Below are positions 36,121 to 55,575 of a stretch of DNA of 55,584 nucleotides, one piece after another. The notes under the pieces were generated by a model. That model saw nothing but the letters and a program-made list of their open reading frames with translations. It ran no database searches and was not told where the DNA came from. Within the stretch, counting starts at the first letter, position 1, and every line of letters starts with the position of its first letter. The stretch comes from an uncultured Caryophanales bacterium. Its GTDB lineage: Bacteria; Bacillota_I; Bacilli_A; RF39; UBA660. Location of the stretch: the NCBI GenBank assembly GCA_946628005.1, contig CAMOWA010000007.1:1-55584 (forward strand), in the 5' to 3' direction. The position numbers and the translations under genes were made by a program.

Positions 36121-36190
36121 ATTATTTGGTATATTAATAACGCATTAAATTACTATGGCAAAAAAATGTCATGGCGGAAGGAGAGATAGA

Positions 36191-41764: not shown

Positions 41765-44257
41765 ATGAATATATTAAGAAAATTATTTGATCATGAATAT
41801 AAAGAATTAAAAAGATTTCATAAAATTGCTGATGAAGTAATGAATCTTGAAGAAGAATATTCAAAACTAACAGATACTGAGTTACAAAATAAAACTCAAG
41901 AATTTAAAGATAGATTACGAGATGGAGAAACATTAGATGATATTCTTGTGGAAGCTTTTGCAACTGCAAGAGAAGCATCATTTAGAGTTATAGGAGAAAA
42001 ACATTTCTACGTTCAAATTTTAGGAGGACTAGCCATACATTATGGTAATATAGCAGAAATGAAAACAGGTGAAGGAAAAACATTAACATCTGTATTACCA
42101 GCATATTTAAATGCATTAACTGGAGAAGGAGTACATATTATTACAGTAAATGAATATCTTGCTGGACGTGATGCAGAATGGATGGGTGGAATTCATAAAT
42201 TTTTAGGATTAACAGTTGGCGTAAACACAAGAGATTTATCTACAGAAGAAAAACAAGAAGCATACAGTTGTGATATTTTATATTCTACAAACAATGAAAT
42301 TGGATTTGATTATTTAAGAGATAATATGGTTACTCATAAAGAAGAAAGAGTACAAAGAAAACTAAATTTTGCTATTATAGATGAAGTCGATTCAGTATTA
42401 ATTGATGAAGCTAGAACCCCACTAATTATTTCAGGTGGAGAAATGTCTAATTCAAATCTTTATATACAAGCAGATAAATATGCTAAGAGCTTAACTCAAG
42501 AAGAAGATTTTATCTATGATGAAAAAACAAAAAGTGTAAATTTAACAGAAAAAGGAGCAGATAAAGCAGAAAGTACTTTCCATATTAATAATTTATATGA
42601 TATTGATAACGCAACTCTTCTTCATTTCATAAATCAAGCATTACGTGCAAATTATTCTATGAAAAATGACGTAGATTATGTTGTACAAGATGGAGAAATA
42701 GTAATAGTAGACCAGTTTACAGGAAGATTAATGAAAGGAAGAGCATATTCAGATGGACTTCATCAAGCCATTGAAGCTAAAGAAGGAGTTAATATTAATC
42801 AAGAAACAAAAACTCTCGCAACAATTACCTTTCAAAATCTATTTCGTATGTATAAAAAATTATCTGGTATGACTGGTACAGCAAAAACAGAGGAAGAAGA
42901 ATTTAGAAACATATATAATATGTATGTAATAGAAATACCTACTAATAAAGAAGTCATAAGAGTAGATGCTCCAGATTTAGTATATGCAACAAAAGAAGCT
43001 AAATATAAAGCAATTATCAACTTTGTAAAAGAAAAATATGAAAAGGGGCAACCCGTTCTAATTGGAACAATTGCTATTGAAACAAGTGAATTAATAAGTA
43101 GTTTATTAAAACAAGCACATATTCCACATGAAGTTTTAAATGCAAAGAATCATGAAAGAGAAGCTGAAATAATTTCCAAAATAGGATTAGGTAAATCAGT
43201 TACAATTGCTACAAATATGGCTGGTCGTGGAACAGATATCAAATTATCTGATGAAGTAAGAAAACTAGGGGGATTATGCGTAGTTGGAACAGAAAGACAC
43301 GAATCTCGACGTATTGATAACCAATTAAGAGGACGTTCAGGACGTCAAGGAGATCCAGGATATACTCAATTCTTTGTTTCAATGAAAGATGATTTAATGG
43401 TAAGATTTGGTTCAGATAGAATAGGTGCTTTAATGGAAAATATGGGATTAGGTGATCAAGCCATTCAAAGTAAAACCTTTACTAGATCTATAGGAACCGC
43501 TCAAAAAAGAGTAGAAGGAAATAACTTTGATATACGTAAAAGTCTACTTCAATACGATGATGTAATGAATAACCAAAGAGAAATCATATACGATAAAAGA
43601 AATAGAATACTAGATAATGAATCAATTCACGATATGGTTCTTACTACTTTTAGACATCACATAGAAGATTTAGTAAAATCTCATATTCCACCAGAAGGAT
43701 ATTTAACAGAAAAAGATTATAGTGAAATAAGAGAATTTCTAAATGAAAATCTATTAAAAAAAGATGCTAAAGAAAAAGACATTAATGGAAAACAGCCAGA
43801 AGAATTAATAGATTACTTATCAAAAATAGTTATTAAAGAATATGAAGATAAAATAAAAGATGCTCCAAAAGAAATAACAGATGAATTTGAAAAAGTTATT
43901 TCACTTCAAGTATTAGATAACTATTGGATGGAACATATAAATACAATGTCTCATTTAAGAGAAGGAATTCACTTAAGAGGATATGCTCAAGAAGATCCAT
44001 TAAGAGCATATACTATGGAAGGATTTGATTTATTTGATTCAATGTTACAGAAAGTAGATAAAGATATATCAATTTTCTTATTAAAAGCAGAAATAAGACA
44101 AAACATCGAAAGAAAAGAACAAACAAAAAAAATGATAACAAATGATTCAGAGGAAAAAGTAGCTAAAAAGAAACCAGTGAAAAAGCAAAAAATAGGAAGA
44201 AATGATCCATGCCCATGTGGGTCTGGTAAGAAATATAAGCAATGTCATGGCAAGTAG
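41765..44257 (+). CDS. secA: Preprotein translocase ATPase SecA
   Basis: SecA is the motor that pushes preproteins through SecYEG. The 830-residue protein shows Walker A MKTGEGKTLTS near residue 100, DEVDSVLIDEARTPLIISG, TNMAGRGTDIKL, QLRGRSGRQGDPG, and a C-terminal SEC-C zinc motif CPCGSGKKYKQCHGK immediately before the stop. The last 44 bases are the left attachment site of a mobile element, so the terminal codons of SecA may be element-derived. prfB, which normally follows, has been displaced beyond the element. Confidence 0.97.
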   Translation: MNILRKLFDHEYKELKRFHKIADEVMNLEEEYSKLTDTELQNKTQEFKDRLRDGETLDDILVEAFATAREASFRVIGEKHFYVQILGGLAIHYGNIAEMKTGEGKTLTSVLPAYLNALTGEGVHIITVNEYLAGRDAEWMGGIHKFLGLTVGVNTRDLSTEEKQEAYSCDILYSTNNEIGFDYLRDNMVTHKEERVQRKLNFAIIDEVDSVLIDEARTPLIISGGEMSNSNLYIQADKYAKSLTQEEDFIYDEKTKSVNLTEKGADKAESTFHINNLYDIDNATLLHFINQALRANYSMKNDVDYVVQDGEIVIVDQFTGRLMKGRAYSDGLHQAIEAKEGVNINQETKTLATITFQNLFRMYKKLSGMTGTAKTEEEEFRNIYNMYVIEIPTNKEVIRVDAPDLVYATKEAKYKAIINFVKEKYEKGQPVLIGTIAIETSELISSLLKQAHIPHEVLNAKNHEREAEIISKIGLGKSVTIATNMAGRGTDIKLSDEVRKLGGLCVVGTERHESRRIDNQLRGRSGRQGDPGYTQFFVSMKDDLMVRFGSDRIGALMENMGLGDQAIQSKTFTRSIGTAQKRVEGNNFDIRKSLLQYDDVMNNQREIIYDKRNRILDNESIHDMVLTTFRHHIEDLVKSHIPPEGYLTEKDYSEIREFLNENLLKKDAKEKDINGKQPEELIDYLSKIVIKEYEDKIKDAPKEITDEFEKVISLQVLDNYWMEHINTMSHLREGIHLRGYAQEDPLRAYTMEGFDLFDSMLQKVDKDISIFLLKAEIRQNIERKEQTKKMITNDSEEKVAKKKPVKKQKIGRNDPCPCGSGKKYKQCHGK
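44214..44257 (+). repeat. attL: secA 3' end, left copy
   Basis: This copy encodes the CGSGKKYKQCHGK tail of SecA. It shares CATGTGG (44214-44220) and TGTCATGGCAA (44243-44253) exactly with the right copy. The differences between are mainly synonymous. Homology ceases abruptly 5' of CATGTGG. Confidence 0.82.
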
Positions 44258-44422: not shown

Positions 44423-44449
44423 AAACTAGCACAATGATGCTAGTTTTTT
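44423..44449 (+). terminator. Hairpin and T-run before the first integrase
   Basis: ACTAGCA (44425-44431) pairs with TGCTAGT (44438-44444), followed by T. It would stop transcription entering int from secA. Confidence 0.75.
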
Positions 44450-44478
44450 GTATTTATGAAAGAAAGGTGTGGGAACAT

Positions 44479-45792
44479 ATGGCTGATATTAGAATATACA
44501 AAAGAGGAAAAGTATATCAATATCAATTTGAAATTGCCTCTGTAGAAGGCAAAAGAAAGTATATCAACAAGAGTGGGTTTAAAACTAGAGCAGAAGCTCA
44601 TAAGGAAGGAGTAATAGCATATAATAATTATTACAATGTTGGGAAGAGGATTCAGACACAAGATATGTCTTATTCAGACTTTTTAGATTATTGGTTAGAT
44701 ACATACTCTAACTTAAATTGTAAGTATGCAACGATAATGACTTATAACAACATTATTAAGAATCATTTGAAACCAAATCTAGGGTATTATAGAATTTCTC
44801 AAATAGATTCTAAAACGATTCAAGAATTTATAAATAATCTATATGTGAAACATGGATTTTCAAAATGGTATTTAAAGAATATATTAAAAGTTATCAAAGG
44901 CTCATTTAAGTATGCTTATTATAATTTGGGGTATATTCCAGATAATCCAGCTGAAAGAGTTCATATTCCTAAATATGATGTAGTAACAGGAGATCCAGCA
45001 CATATATTTACTCAAGAAGAAATAGAAAGGATATTAGAAAGATTTAAAGATTCTCATTCAATATATTATTCATTCTTAACAGCATATTATACAGGGATGA
45101 GAGTATCAGAAGTGTATGCTTTAACTTGGGATTGTGTAGATTTTGAAAATAAGACAATAACAATCAATAAGAACATTATTAAAAAGAATCAATTTGGCTT
45201 ACCTAAAAGGAAGAATATTACAAAAGGTCATTCAGTTGGAGTTTGGTATTATGGTACATGTAAAAATGAACAGAGTAGAAGAACTATATCTATAGGAGAT
45301 AAATTAGTAAAAGCATTGAAAGAATATAAAAAAGAACAAGAAGATAATAGAAAATTTTATGGAGATTCCTATCTGAAGCATTATGAGAAAAAAGTAATAA
45401 ATGAAATCACAAATAAGGAAGAAATAAAGATAGTAGATGCCAAAGCAGAACTTGAATTAGCATTACCAGAAGCACAATTAGTTTTTGTAAAAGAAAACGG
45501 ACAATTTCTAGGAACTGATTCATGTAAGTATGCCTTTAAAGTAATGCATTATGAGTTAGGAATACCATGCAGATTCCATGACTTTAGAGATACACATGCT
45601 ACAAGACTAATCGAGCAAGGTGCAGATATTAAAGCGGTATCAAAAAGATTAGGACATTCAACTATAATGACAACATACAATATCTATGTAAGAGTAACCG
45701 ATAAAATGGAAACTGATACAGTTGATAAATTTGAAGAATATACAAATACATTAGATATCCCCAATACTGTGGATAAACCTTATTTAGACTAA
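44479..45792 (+). CDS. Tyrosine recombinase/integrase (Tn916-Int type), attL-proximal
   Basis: The 437-residue protein has an N-terminal AP2-like arm-binding domain (IRIYKRGKVYQYQFEIASVE), a SAM-like core-binding domain (about 60-160) and a catalytic domain with Arg in TGMRVSEVYALTW near residue 205, HDFRDTHATRL near 366, LGHST, and the nucleophilic Tyr in TTYNIYVRV near 403. All catalytic residues are present. The start at 44479 has GAAAGGTG upstream; the frame is open further 5'. It sits beside attL, the usual place of the integrase that recognises this site. It is related to the second integrase at 49234. Confidence 0.92.
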   Translation: MADIRIYKRGKVYQYQFEIASVEGKRKYINKSGFKTRAEAHKEGVIAYNNYYNVGKRIQTQDMSYSDFLDYWLDTYSNLNCKYATIMTYNNIIKNHLKPNLGYYRISQIDSKTIQEFINNLYVKHGFSKWYLKNILKVIKGSFKYAYYNLGYIPDNPAERVHIPKYDVVTGDPAHIFTQEEIERILERFKDSHSIYYSFLTAYYTGMRVSEVYALTWDCVDFENKTITINKNIIKKNQFGLPKRKNITKGHSVGVWYYGTCKNEQSRRTISIGDKLVKALKEYKKEQEDNRKFYGDSYLKHYEKKVINEITNKEEIKIVDAKAELELALPEAQLVFVKENGQFLGTDSCKYAFKVMHYELGIPCRFHDFRDTHATRLIEQGADIKAVSKRLGHSTIMTTYNIYVRVTDKMETDTVDKFEEYTNTLDIPNTVDKPYLD

Positions 45793-47506: not shown

Positions 47507-47565
47507 GCAACTTGCAACTTTTTGCCACTTTTTTGCCACTTTTTGCTACTTTTTTGCCACTTTTT
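47507..47565. repeat. Helically phased T-tract repeats (GCCACTTTTTT type)
   Basis: Units beginning GCAAC, GCCAC, GCCAC, GCTAC and GCCAC start at 47514, 47524, 47535, 47545 and 47556, that is at spacings of 10, 11, 10 and 11 bases, with T5-6 tracts between them; a further GCAAC starts at 47507. The period equals one helical turn, so the DNA should be intrinsically curved. They may also be protein-binding iterons (replication or recombination). They lie immediately upstream of a predicted promoter. Confidence 0.75.
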
Positions 47566-47587
47566 AAAAAAGTTTTTAAAAAAGTTC

Positions 47588-47615
47588 TTGAAAAACATAC
47601 AAAAAGTGCTATTAT
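47588..47615 (+). promoter_or_regulatory. Predicted promoter of the element's regulatory-mobilization operon
   Basis: TTGAAA (47588-47593) and TATTAT (47610-47615) are 16 bases apart, just downstream of the phased T-tracts and before the leader ORF. Confidence 0.5.
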
Positions 47616-47644
47616 AGAAAGCAATTAATTGGAGCTGATGTCTA

Positions 47645-47722
47645 ATGAGAAATAAAGCACTTTTAATTTATACACGAAAACAATTTAGTTTATTAATTAA
47701 TGGATTCAATGAGAGAAATTGA
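47645..47722 (+). CDS. 25-residue leader peptide
   Basis: A small ORF with a good ribosome-binding site (GGAG at 47631-47634) encodes 25 residues beginning MRNKALLIYTRKQF and ending NERN. Its last four codons (GAG AGA AAT TGA) overlap the 5' arm of an intrinsic terminator. Translation to the stop would place a ribosome on that arm. This is the design of leader-peptide attenuators, such as that known upstream of tet(M) in Tn916. The sequence itself has no recognised family. Confidence 0.5.
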   Translation: MRNKALLIYTRKQFSLLINGFNERN

Positions 47723-47748
47723 CTTTGCCGTCTTTTTCTCTCTTTTTT
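47711..47748 (+). terminator. Attenuator terminator after the leader ORF
   Basis: GAGAGAAA (47711-47718) pairs with TTTCTCTC (47735-47742), followed by six T. The 5' arm belongs to the leader reading frame, and the next gene's ribosome-binding site (GGGAGG) follows at once. Confidence 0.7.
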
Positions 47749-47763
47749 GTTGGGAGGTTTGGA

Positions 47764-48375
47764 ATGATAAAGAAAAATGATAAAGGAAAAATAGATGTAT
47801 CATTACTAGAAATACAACGACCACTACCAGTGAAAATTATAGAAGAATACAATCATAAGGATGCAATTAAAGAGATTCACAATATATTTGATCAACTAAC
47901 TGATAATTATTTTTATCAGGTTGCATATCAGGAATATTTAAAATATGCAATTAATGAAAATTTAGAGTTTATTATACTAGAAGATCCTTCATTACATATA
48001 AAAACAGTTAACGTTAACAATATAATTCTAAAAGATGACATTTCATTTAAGAAATTTAATAAACATGATTATAGAAAATCGATAGACTTATGTGAAATGC
48101 TTTTAAAAAGAGTAAAGGATGCATTTGATAATCTTGATGAATTTGAAAGATTCATAATTAAGAATTTTGAATATGATAATCCAAAAGACTATGTGGATGA
48201 ATCATTATATTATGAGATGCATATACATAAAGACAAATACTATATTTCAAAGAAAAGTGCATATTTAAAAATGGCAATTCAATTAGGATTAATGGTAGAT
48301 ACACAAATAGATTCATTAATAATAAGTGAATTAAAAAGACAAATAGGAAAAAATATAATTACTATAGGAAAATAG
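47764..48375 (+). CDS. ArpU-like putative transcriptional regulator
   Basis: The 203-residue protein starts at ATG 47764 (GGGAGG upstream; the open frame extends to a TTG at 47719 inside the terminator). The C-terminal half has a pattern like ArpU/sigma-70 region-4 relatives: LDEFERFIIKNFEYDNPKD, then YISKKSAYLKMAIQLGL, which resembles a helix-turn-helix. ArpU-type proteins regulate late genes in phages and occur in mobile elements of Firmicutes. The family call is tentative. A strong terminator follows, so later genes must have a separate promoter or read-through. Confidence 0.45.
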   Translation: MIKKNDKGKIDVSLLEIQRPLPVKIIEEYNHKDAIKEIHNIFDQLTDNYFYQVAYQEYLKYAINENLEFIILEDPSLHIKTVNVNNIILKDDISFKKFNKHDYRKSIDLCEMLLKRVKDAFDNLDEFERFIIKNFEYDNPKDYVDESLYYEMHIHKDKYYISKKSAYLKMAIQLGLMVDTQIDSLIISELKRQIGKNIITIGK

Positions 48376-48402: not shown

Positions 48403-48432
48403 AACTCTACAAGACAATTTGTAGAGTTTTTT
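48403..48432 (+). terminator. Terminator after the ArpU-like gene
   Basis: AACTCTACAA (48403-48412) pairs with TTGTAGAGTT (48419-48428) around a six-base loop, followed by T. Confidence 0.85.
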
Positions 48433-48513
48433 CGCATGGTTTAAATAATCGTTCTCCTAGATAATGGTATTGAACAGAGGCCAAAGTTCAGTAATTTAAA
48501 AAGGAGAGATAAA

Positions 48514-49002
48514 ATGAAAGATGATTATATTGTGATATATGCGGTTGTTCCGAGATATATCTATGAAACAAAACTATTAACACCAGAAGAAAAGCTTATT
48601 GCTGAACGTATTATTTATTTATGCAAAAAGGAAGGATATTGTTGGATAACAAATAAATCTTTAGCAGAAATGTACCATATAACAGTAGATACAGCTTCTA
48701 AACATATTAAGAAACTAGAAAAAATAGGATTAATTAAGTGTATCTATGATCATAATGATAAGAACACTAAACGTATCATCCAATTAGTAGAGGACATATG
48801 GAATAGTTGGTCTATAAGAGATAGATCAAATGAACGAGATAATATAGATTATTCAAACAAACATAATAATAAATATAATAAAAAGATAGAATATGAAGAT
48901 AATAGACCTAAATGGATGAATCATCCAGAAATGTGTAAGTCAGAACCAATGACTCCAAAAGAACTTGCCGAGTTTGAGGAATTATTAGCGAAGTTTAAAT
49001 AA
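48514..49002 (+). CDS. Helix-turn-helix replication-initiator-like protein
   Basis: The 162-residue protein has a winged-helix domain (about residues 20-95) with LTPEEKLIAERIIYLCKKEGYCWITNKSLAEMYHI and TVDTASKHIKKLEKIGLIK, the HTH_36 pattern seen in many plasmid and IME replication or regulatory proteins. The C-terminal part is charged and low complexity, ending in an acidic helix. AAAAAGGAGAG precedes the ATG. Its stop shares a base with the excisionase start, so it is coupled to the recombination genes. Whether it starts replication or regulates transcription is not decided by sequence. Confidence 0.6.
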   Translation: MKDDYIVIYAVVPRYIYETKLLTPEEKLIAERIIYLCKKEGYCWITNKSLAEMYHITVDTASKHIKKLEKIGLIKCIYDHNDKNTKRIIQLVEDIWNSWSIRDRSNERDNIDYSNKHNNKYNKKIEYEDNRPKWMNHPEMCKSEPMTPKELAEFEELLAKFK

Positions 49003-49241
49003 TGGAAGAAAGATTAATATATACAGTACAAGAAGTTGCTAGTATTCTTCATTCAAGTCCAAATTATATTTATGAATTAATTAGAAAAGGATATTTACCA
49101 GCAATTAAACTAGGTAGTTTAAAGGTACTTAAAACCACTCTAGAAAGATTTTTAATACAAAATGAGGGAAAAGACTTATCAGATATTAATAACATAAAGA
49201 AGTTAGTTACTAATATCGAAATAGAGGTACAAAATGGCTAA
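49002..49241 (+). CDS. xis: Excisionase-family DNA-binding protein
   Basis: The 79-residue protein has a MerR/excisionase helix-turn-helix: LIYTVQEVASILHSSPNYIYELIRKGYLPAIKLGSLKVLKTTLERFL. It overlaps both neighbours (1 base with the HTH gene, 8 with int2). Such proteins bend DNA at att sites and direct tyrosine integrases toward excision. Confidence 0.85.
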   Translation: MEERLIYTVQEVASILHSSPNYIYELIRKGYLPAIKLGSLKVLKTTLERFLIQNEGKDLSDINNIKKLVTNIEIEVQNG

Positions 49242-50520
49242 TGTAAGAATAATTAAAAGAGGAGAGGTATATCAATACCAATTTGAAATAGCACCCGTAA
49301 ATGGGACTAGAAAATACATAAATAAAAGTGGATTTAGAACTAAAGCAGAAGCTATTGAAGCAGGAAATGTTGCCTATACAGAATATATAAATGCTGGAAA
49401 ACCTTTTAAAGAATCAAAACTATCCTATAGTGATTATTTAGACTATTGGCTAGATAACTATTGTAAGAATAATCTTAAATACAATACTGTAGAAGCATAT
49501 AAAACACTAATAAATAAATATATAAAACCTAAAATAGGAAAATATAAAATATCATCATTAACAAGTGTAGCATTAAATAATTTCATAACTGAAATAGTAA
49601 ATGAACATAATTTTTCTAGAGAGTACTTTAAGAATCTTTTAAAGGTTCTTAAAGGCTCATTTAGAGAAGCAACTAATCTATATGGAATCATAAAATATAA
49701 TCCAACACTAACAATAAGGTTACCTAAAACAGATAAAGTTGAGGAAAGCATTAAACACTTATATACACAAGAAGAAATAGATAAAATTCTAGAAAGATTT
49801 AAAGAGAATAATACCTTCATATGTGCTTTTCTAACATCGTGTTTTACAGGAATGAGGACAGGAGAAGTATTTGCGCTAACTTGGGAAGATATAGATTTAG
49901 AAAATGGAATAATTAGTATAAAACATAATGTTTATGATAAAGCCAAAGATAAATTTGGAAGATGGTATATAGGATCAACGAAAACCATAACAGGAACTAG
50001 AAAAATATTTATAGGTGAAACACTTAAAACTGCTTTAATTAATTTTAAGAAGTATCAAGAAGAAACTAAAAGACTATATGGAAGAGACTATAAGTATTAT
50101 CATGTTGAAGAAGTAAAAAATGAATATGGTAAAGTTGTTGAAAACAGAATTGTTATTAACAAGAACAATATTGAATACGAGAACATAAATTTAGTATTTA
50201 CAAAAAGAGATGGAACTTATGTAGGTACAGATTTAATTCGATATCCATTTAAAGTAATTCACGAAGAATTAGGAATAAAGAAATGTAGATTCTATGATTT
50301 GAGAGGAACATATGCGACTAAAGTTTTAAATAATGGTACAGAGATAAAAGATGTAGCTAATCTATTAGGGCATAGAAATATAGAAACGACTGAAAACTAT
50401 TACATTAGAAGTATAGAAGATAATAGAAGATTAGCAGTAAATGAATTTGATAGTAAAAATACAACTGAAGTTATAAAAAATGTAATAGAATTTCAAATTA
50501 AAGAAGGTGAAACAATATGA
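49234..50520 (+). CDS. int: Second tyrosine recombinase/integrase (Tn916-Int type), coupled to xis
   Basis: The 428-residue protein is a paralogue of the integrase at 44479, with the same N-terminal arm-binding domain (VRIIKRGEVYQYQFEIAPVN; about half identical there). Catalytic Arg is in TGMRTGEVFALTWED near residue 206, the second Arg in FYDLRGTYATKVL near 354, then LGHRN and Tyr in TTENYYIRS. The His of the HxxR motif is Tyr here (YDLR), which may be normal for this subfamily. It overlaps xis by 8 bases and the relaxase by 4, giving an xis-int-mob operon. Confidence 0.9.
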   Translation: MANVRIIKRGEVYQYQFEIAPVNGTRKYINKSGFRTKAEAIEAGNVAYTEYINAGKPFKESKLSYSDYLDYWLDNYCKNNLKYNTVEAYKTLINKYIKPKIGKYKISSLTSVALNNFITEIVNEHNFSREYFKNLLKVLKGSFREATNLYGIIKYNPTLTIRLPKTDKVEESIKHLYTQEEIDKILERFKENNTFICAFLTSCFTGMRTGEVFALTWEDIDLENGIISIKHNVYDKAKDKFGRWYIGSTKTITGTRKIFIGETLKTALINFKKYQEETKRLYGRDYKYYHVEEVKNEYGKVVENRIVINKNNIEYENINLVFTKRDGTYVGTDLIRYPFKVIHEELGIKKCRFYDLRGTYATKVLNNGTEIKDVANLLGHRNIETTENYYIRSIEDNRRLAVNEFDSKNTTEVIKNVIEFQIKEGETI

Positions 50521-51803
50521 ATTATGCAATATTCAGAAGCAAACCTATCTATACATTAAATGATTTAGCTCAAATTGGATCTCACAATAAAAGAGAAAAG
50601 AAAGCATACAACTCAAATCCTGATATAAAAAAAGAATTGAGTAGTAATAATATTGAAATAGTACCATTAAAAGAAAAATATGTAAAAGGTTTTTATGAAT
50701 TAACATCAGACTATAAAAAGGAACACGAAGAGAGAATGAAAACAGAAAGAGAAGATAGAAAGAAAACCTTTAGACAAATGTTAGATAGTTCAAAAAACTG
50801 CGTAGCTGATGAGTTGTTATTCACAGCTACAAACACGTTTTTTCAGAATATGAAAAGAGAAGATATAAAAGAATGGGCAGATACATGTATGGAATTTGTC
50901 TATAATGATCTAGGATACAAGAAAGAACAAGTTTTACATGCAACAGTTCATATGGATGAAAAAACTCCTCATATTCATTGTGTGGTAGTTCCATTAGTTA
51001 GAAAATTTGATAAAAGAACTAATACAGAAAGATACACAATAACAAAAAAACAGTATATAAAAGATAAGATTCATTTATCTGAATTACAAGATAAATACCA
51101 CAAAAGATTAACTGAAAAAGGCTATGATTTGGAAAGAGGAATTAAGAATAGTGATACAAAACACATTGAAATAAAGGAATATAAAAAAATAAATAGAAGT
51201 TTAGAGCAGAAAATAAAAAATAGAACTGAAACTCTTAATAAAGAAATAAATGAATTAGATGAAAAAATGAAAAAATCTAAAAGTCTGCCATTTGATAAAA
51301 AACATATTATAGTTGAAAAAGAAACATTTGATAGTATGAATAAGGTAATAGACGAATCAAAAAAGATTAAAGAAATAGAACCCAAAATTAAAACAATATT
51401 TGAAGAAATAAATACTTTTTCAACAAACTATAAAACAATGGAAAAAGCAAATCAAAAATATAAAAGGGAAGTAAATAAATTAAAAGAAGATAATAATAAA
51501 CTAGAAAGAGAAAATAATTCCTTAATATATCAATTAAGTCAATTATTTGAATTATTAAAGAAGTTTTTAAGAAAACTATTATTAAGAGGTAATGAGTTTG
51601 CAAAAGAAGAATCATCTAATATAGTTAAAGAATGTTATAATAATGAAGATTTTAAAATGATAGATGTAGTTCATATTTCAAGAGGTACAACAAAACAAGA
51701 AGAATTATTTGATTATGTAAATGCACCAGAGGATTATAAAGAAAGAGTAAGGAGTAAAAATGAAAAAGTAGAGCAAGAAAAAGAAGATGATTTGAGTTTA
51801 TAA
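50517..51803 (+). CDS. mobV: MobV-family relaxase (Mob/Pre)
   Basis: The 428-residue protein nicks oriT and pilots the single strand during conjugative mobilization. Motif I includes QIGSHNKREKKAYNSNPDI with the His homologous to the catalytic His of MobM. Motif III is HATVHMDEKTPHIHCVVVPL, the metal-binding HxDExxPHxH. Residues about 225-360 form a long coiled coil, as in other Mob/Pre proteins. The start is coupled to int2 (ATGA). No coupling protein or type IV secretion genes are present, so a helper conjugative element is needed. Confidence 0.95.
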   Translation: MNYAIFRSKPIYTLNDLAQIGSHNKREKKAYNSNPDIKKELSSNNIEIVPLKEKYVKGFYELTSDYKKEHEERMKTEREDRKKTFRQMLDSSKNCVADELLFTATNTFFQNMKREDIKEWADTCMEFVYNDLGYKKEQVLHATVHMDEKTPHIHCVVVPLVRKFDKRTNTERYTITKKQYIKDKIHLSELQDKYHKRLTEKGYDLERGIKNSDTKHIEIKEYKKINRSLEQKIKNRTETLNKEINELDEKMKKSKSLPFDKKHIIVEKETFDSMNKVIDESKKIKEIEPKIKTIFEEINTFSTNYKTMEKANQKYKREVNKLKEDNNKLERENNSLIYQLSQLFELLKKFLRKLLLRGNEFAKEESSNIVKECYNNEDFKMIDVVHISRGTTKQEELFDYVNAPEDYKERVRSKNEKVEQEKEDDLSL

Positions 51804-55446: not shown

Positions 55447-55575
55447 ATGAATGTTACCATAGCCAAAAGCCTTGAAAATATAATAAATATTGATAATATG
55501 TATAGTATTGATAATACTTACATTGAGGCAGCATGTGGCAGTGGATTGAAGTATAAAAACTGTCATGGCAAATAG
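55447..55575 (+). pseudogene. SEC-C tail remnant of secA in a 42-codon frame
   Basis: The last 15 codons read AACGSGLKYKNCHGK and stop, a divergent copy of the SecA C-terminus. Upstream the frame is open to ATG 55447 (MNVTIAKSLENIIN...) but with no ribosome-binding site, so this fusion is probably accidental. Most differences from secA are synonymous, which shows that both tails evolved as coding sequence. Confidence 0.7.
55532..55575 (+). repeat. attR: secA 3' end, right copy
   Basis: This is the right partner of attL. CATGTGG (55532-55538) and TGTCATGGCAA (55561-55571) are identical to the left copy. After the TAG the sequence should be the original chromosomal flank of secA. Confidence 0.82.

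Follow-up and report, generated by a model that had tools for sequence, protein, structure and literature searches.

The window (the whole stretch of DNA that was analysed, 55,584 nucleotides) contains the direct repeat TGTCATGGCAA at 44243-44253 and again at 55561-55571, and on its right side the C-terminal tail of SecA is encoded a second time. These repeats and this tail show that the interval is an insertion of ~11.3 kb in the 3' end of secA by which secA was restored. The inserted DNA encodes two tyrosine integrases, a HATPase_c_4 protein with TTTTTGCCAC repeats, the putatively attenuated regulator described below, an HTH_36 protein, an excisionase, a MobV relaxase and three uncharacterised genes. 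No conjugation pore genes or T4SS family were found among its ten main ORFs, nor was a resistance gene identified in this element. Judged by its relaxase, its integrases and its att repeats, it is a MobV integrative mobilizable element. Arm-type repeats TGTTCGCA are found near both of its ends. Two other genomes, G190 and G017, appear from their ORF layout to carry the same backbone with different cargo after secA; the layout also indicates that they share the two paralogous tyrosine integrases per element, and the end repeats differ (TGTGCACA-like in G190, TTTGTCCAC in G017). In a part of the window that belongs to the host, Rfam recognises an L31-Firmicutes ribosomal protein leader before rpmE (36153-36183). 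The features of the element that matter for the following are:

44434-45792, plus strand: tyrosine integrase 1, which in many relatives lies next to the leader on its upstream side.
47588-47615, plus strand: P1, a predicted sigma-A-type promoter by consensus match only, with -35 TTGAAA (47588-47593), a 16-nt spacer and an extended -10 TG-n-TATTAT (TATTAT at 47610-47615).
47631-47634, plus strand: Shine-Dalgarno sequence GGAG of the leader ORF, recognised by sequence and invariant among class A relatives.
47645-47722, plus strand: leader ORF of 25 codons, MRNKALLIYTRKQFSLLINGFNERN, with its TGA at 47720-47722.
47711-47748, plus strand: intrinsic terminator, with a hairpin at 47711-47742 followed by T6 at 47743-47748.
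47764-48375, plus strand: the gene proposed to be attenuated, a 203-aa regulator with a sigma-region-4/ArpU-like C-terminal half.
48403-48432, plus strand: terminator at the end of the leader-activator unit, AACTCTACAA gacaat TTGTAGAGTT TTTT, kept in many relatives.
48460-48490, plus strand: P2, with a -10-like GATAAT (48460-48465), no recognisable -35, and then a palindrome.
48471-48490: the palindrome TGAACAGAGGCCAAAGTTCA, a candidate operator of the HTH-xis-int-mob operon.
48514-49002, plus strand: HTH_36 winged-helix protein (Pfam, E=5.3e-7).
49002-49241, plus strand: excisionase-like HTH_17 protein (TIGR01764, above cut-off).
49234-50520, plus strand: tyrosine integrase 2 (Pfam PF00589, E=7e-19).
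50517-51803, plus strand: MobV relaxase (NCBIfam NF041497, 113.9 bits vs a cut-off of 100).

The initial annotation had proposed, for 47588-47764, a predicted promoter and a 25-codon ORF with its own ribosome-binding site, the end and stop of which overlap the 5' arm of an 8-bp stem with a T-run, just before the next gene, and all of these are present there. The GGAG is separated from the ATG at 47645 by 10 nt, a distance near the upper limit of what is usual; another ATG, at 47638, is out of frame with the leader and opens an ORF of 5 codons. In the terminator stem, the 8-bp 5' arm GAGAGAAA (47711-47718) pairs with the 3' arm TTTCTCTC (47735-47742), and an inner 3-bp GAC/GTC helix lies beyond a TT/TT internal loop, the whole hairpin being worth about -14 kcal/mol. 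The 5' arm is inside the leader ORF, at its final codons and stop, and the TGA straddles the internal loop directly 3' of the 8-bp arm. Only 21 nt separate the end of the hairpin from the regulator ATG at 47764, the regulator Shine-Dalgarno sequence GGGAGG (47752-47757) among them, and because this gap is so short the regulator gene must depend on read-through, barring an undetected start. The hairpin is absent from the list produced by a consensus terminator scan because the loop limit of that scan is 8. Rfam gave no match at the leader region, and the leader codons hold no run for one amino acid that could serve as a starvation sensor. At 47512-47595, in the interval that separates P1 from the cargo HATPase_c_4 gene, there are tandem TTTTTGCCACTT (about 10-11 nt) and TTTTTAAAAAAG repeats; they also occur in the closest relative (L050) and were not seen where the integrase directly precedes P1.

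When the hairpin was held fixed and the 111 nt upstream were dinucleotide-shuffled, an ORF of at least 10 codons with a Shine-Dalgarno sequence and ATG stopped in the 5' arm in 56 of 5000 shuffles (1.1%, for one locus). In about 157 kb (the window plus seven contigs from relatives), scanned on both strands, we counted 63 terminators, of which 22 immediately precede a gene; within this sample, an attenuator-like combination was seen at the present locus and its orthologues and nowhere else.

Homologues of the 203-aa gene were gathered from whole genomes, and 32 loci had a scorable upstream region (three more, truncated or masked, stand outside this number). The initial annotation had looked to related elements for conservation of the overlap, and indeed, in 26 of the 32 scorable loci, the leader stops inside the terminator, 9-17 nt into the hairpin, which is where the 5' arm ends. 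Three mutually unrelated leader peptides stop there, before homologues of one gene:

Class A: MRNKALLIYTRKQFSLLINGFNERN, 14 loci and the window.
Class B: MKWKSYDLYLNLLLREC or MANISYYLYLDLLSREC, 5 loci.
Class C: MKKQSKLINLYNELFRGVGSI, 7 loci.

Further class B variants, L118 and L119, have GTC/GAC in place of GTG/CAC in the stem and a stop shifted into the loop, and in L101, a distant homologue, a fourth leader, 38 codons long, stops within the terminator. A -10 element, extended or plain, lies at the same position in relatives of leader classes A-D, and the leaders A-D have no common motif. A hairpin kept without a conserved leader start or frame had been named beforehand as evidence against an attenuator, and this was seen in part. 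L062, L073 (upstream of 3980) and L074 keep promoter and hairpin and have no leader ORF, so the terminator can exist leaderless; in L079 the leader frame is shifted, with the stop still within the hairpin; and a 5-nt deletion common to L080 and L084, whose genes are broken or decayed, moves the stop to the arm's base. Upstream of the gene in another distant homologue, L098 (reverse strand), AAGCTCATAT is complementary to ATATGAGCTT in the terminator 5' arm, possibly an RNA antiterminator in place of a leader, and in L106 (reverse strand) a possible fifth leader, MLSIYNFISNKRKLLER, stops in the terminator stem, with a weakly related gene next. All homologues in the sampled genomes lie inside the host's family, and a class-wide search gave no additional genomes outside it. 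The 203-aa protein had no match in phages or plasmids, the leader DNA none in plasmids, and neither the protein nor a degenerate leader pattern had one among viral contigs; the phage matches of the leader DNA were confined to an AT-rich segment of 39 nt in Prevotella phages, which we judged to be chance.

The stem itself varies in a way that preserves pairing. In class A, 3 of 8 distinct sequences have G-C in place of A-U at one pair, both sides having changed, and in class B a different pair changes from G-C to C-G; both changes are compensatory, with covariation counts that are modest because the sequences are few. A folding test, run on class A and on two class B loci, gave no conserved antiterminator in class A: the 5' arm has a mean predicted pairing of 0.17-0.71 there, with partners that vary. 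Three candidate structures were rejected. In the window and L058 the 5' arm is predicted to pair with codons 13-20, which the other class A members do not share; the 3' arm can alternatively pair with GAGAAA in the start region, a possibility that is gone in the GAGGGAAA types; and a long AU helix of the Shine-Dalgarno region and codons 13-20 is predicted for some class A RNAs and not for all. Folded as a whole, the 155-nt leader has no excess structure over shuffles (z -0.79), and the terminator alone stands out. The shared stop position, the three unrelated leaders, the compensatory stems and the lack of a conserved antiterminator speak for an attenuator with the ribosome-occlusion geometry first suggested for this locus.

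Behind the terminator, the C-terminal half of the 203-aa protein matches the ArpU model TIGR01637 (E=2.7e-5, 24.4 bits vs a curated cut-off of 43.1, and thus below it), and some members match phrog_248, a PHROG transcription activator (best 3.7e-4). Compared with the PDB, its AlphaFold model (pLDDT 82, pTM 0.81) had mostly sigma region 4 domains as top matches, each with a weak E-value, and it also matched phage transcription regulators. The protein is probably an ArpU-like or sigma4-like regulator acting as a transcription activator, one that stays under the threshold for ArpU membership. The attenuator had been assigned to the element's genes at large; this holds for the regulator gene, which is the whole of the attenuated unit. 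Since that unit is one gene, with its own terminator and a probable activator as its product, the attenuator would reach the element's other genes only indirectly. Further downstream, the GATAAT of P2 is conserved, and in most relatives so is the palindrome upstream of the HTH-xis-int-mob operon, which varies symmetrically (GAACT..AGTTC in L052; a TAGCGCTA core in L073). The lack of a -35 would fit P2 as a candidate activator-dependent promoter.

We consider it likely that a ribosome-dependent transcription attenuator governs the sigma4/ArpU-like activator gene of this MobV mobilizable element. The layout of the parts and its conservation are established; we infer ribosome occlusion as the event that would control read-through and, through the activator, P2. 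Once P1 is transcribed, the hairpin at 47711-47742 would fold and the polymerase would halt at the T-run if no ribosome reached the end of the leader in time, while a ribosome on the final leader codons or the stop would cover the 5' arm, block the hairpin and let the polymerase enter the activator gene, whose product would then probably turn on P2 and the HTH-xis-int-MobV operon. Occlusion is the most direct model because a ribosome at the stop would cover the whole 5' arm; the leader ORF would serve as a ruler that sets the ribosome onto the arm, with the peptide sequence being of little weight. As to the sign of the response, slow elongation or drugs that keep ribosomes late in the leader would be expected to give more read-through, and loss of leader initiation less. 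In B. subtilis the polymerase runs ahead of the ribosomes (PMC9226507), and occlusion would therefore call for a pause or for a leader that is slow in its late part; the known Gram-positive systems show that this requirement can be satisfied. Elongation-slowing drugs could increase read-through, as in Tn916 (PMC9632896), but the sign varies by system, bmrB terminating under efficient translation (PMC4191407).

Would the peptide itself matter? Class A leaders are 87-100% identical while the regulator gene drops to 55% nucleotide identity, which could reflect either constraint or module exchange. Codons 1-8 are identical in all 15 class A loci, and the C-termini of class B (REC) and class C (FRGVGSI) are fixed, as might be expected of an arrest peptide or amino-acid sensor in which ribosomes stall at set residues or codons for a specific drug or shortage (cf. 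the ermC and trp leaders). We find this reading unlikely, since RNA constraint accounts for the fixed ends: the invariant C-termini lie on the hairpin arm, and in the class A N-terminus even the silent sites do not vary. The remaining changes, moreover, are mostly nonsynonymous: variant codons in the three classes comprise 5 synonymous vs 27 nonsynonymous, with low substitution counts, about 30% synonymous being expected free of selection, and close pairs of the regulator gene are about 2:1 synonymous. The missing common motif and the missing one-amino-acid codon run also argue against it. Kept are the Shine-Dalgarno sequence, the start, the open frame, the stop position and the hairpin, and residue identity is not kept; because frame, start and stop are conserved and amino acids are not, a specific arrest peptide is disfavoured and a ribosome-placing leader favoured. 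A peptide free of purifying selection could equally belong to an untranslated ORF, which seems unlikely because ORFs led by a Shine-Dalgarno sequence recur with their stop at the same place.

The good Shine-Dalgarno sequence and the leader's own promoter and terminator would also suit a functional 25-aa micro-protein, the activator being expressed from elsewhere, but we regard this as very improbable given that unrelated peptides replace it in relatives, that purifying selection is absent and that the 21 nt before the regulator gene are too short for a promoter. More can be said for a fixed terminator or small RNA, in which P1 yields an RNA of about 125 nt, the hairpin lets a low, unvarying level of transcription through to the activator and the ORF is incidental: the leaderless L062, L073 and L074 are just such pairs of promoter and hairpin, and the nucleotide-level constraint in class A includes silent sites. 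We nevertheless give it a small probability, as four unrelated leaders with good Shine-Dalgarno sequences stop at or inside the arm, at a chance of about 1% per one locus, and we retain the ribosome-dependent attenuator as our preferred reading.

How mobilizable elements that have no conjugation machinery of their own time their excision is largely unknown. With the decision gene physically behind a probably translation-gated terminator, the attenuator makes a testable prediction on mobilization, namely that ribosome-targeting drugs or translation stress would mobilize such gut-bacterial elements even where no resistance gene is identified. A broader proposal, which we put forward tentatively and hold to be possible rather than probable, is that this element family uses interchangeable, sequence-unconstrained leaders, repeatedly recruited and replaced, as translation-state gates on the activator, so that ribosome status directly sets mobilization. 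If true, the status of the host's ribosomes, and not DNA damage, a resistance gene or a partner signal, would decide, and the swapped leaders would be a natural experiment on whether leader peptides must have a sequence at all.

The closest likeness is to the tet(M) leader of Tn916, where, according to Su, He and Clewell (1992) as cited in PMC9632896, a promoter, orf12 and a terminator precede tet(M), and where translation inhibitors relieve attenuation and also stimulate excision and transfer (PMC9632896, PMC9154091). The comparison with tet(M) made in the initial annotation stands for the kind of attenuator, since both loci place a promoter, a short leader ORF and a terminator before a gene of an integrated mobile element, but tet(M) is not downstream here: whereas in Tn916 tet(M) comes first and element activation follows, the gene proposed to be attenuated here is a sigma4/ArpU-like regulator in a MobV mobilizable element with no resistance gene identified. 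In bmrB-bmrCD of B. subtilis, likewise a ribosome-mediated system of a low-GC Gram-positive, the leader coding region holds an intrinsic terminator, and slowed translation leads to antiterminator pairing that opens the transporter operon (PMC4191407); the present locus differs in having no conserved antiterminator and an element activator as its target. The mef(E)/mel leader (PMC4335068) and the vmlR uORF (PMC9226507) also govern read-through by a uORF and a Rho-independent terminator, but their uORFs are very short and drug-responsive, with antiterminators and with resistance genes downstream. A conserved alternative pairing of the 5' arm, as in the antiterminator-type systems trp, bmrB and vmlR, was not found in class A. 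The controlled protein shares a C-terminal sigma-region-4-like fold with ArpU-type phage late activators (TIGR01637), and differs from them in scoring below the family cut-off, in its additional N-terminal half and in belonging to a mobilizable element, not a phage. Full-text searches of open-access papers turned up no account of a switch like this one in mobilizable elements, and a search through the text of a major review of these elements (PMC5704250) gave no mention of attenuation. Most likely, then, the locus works as kin of the tet(M) attenuator, and what is new about it is the activator as target, the lack of a conserved antiterminator and the replaceable leaders.
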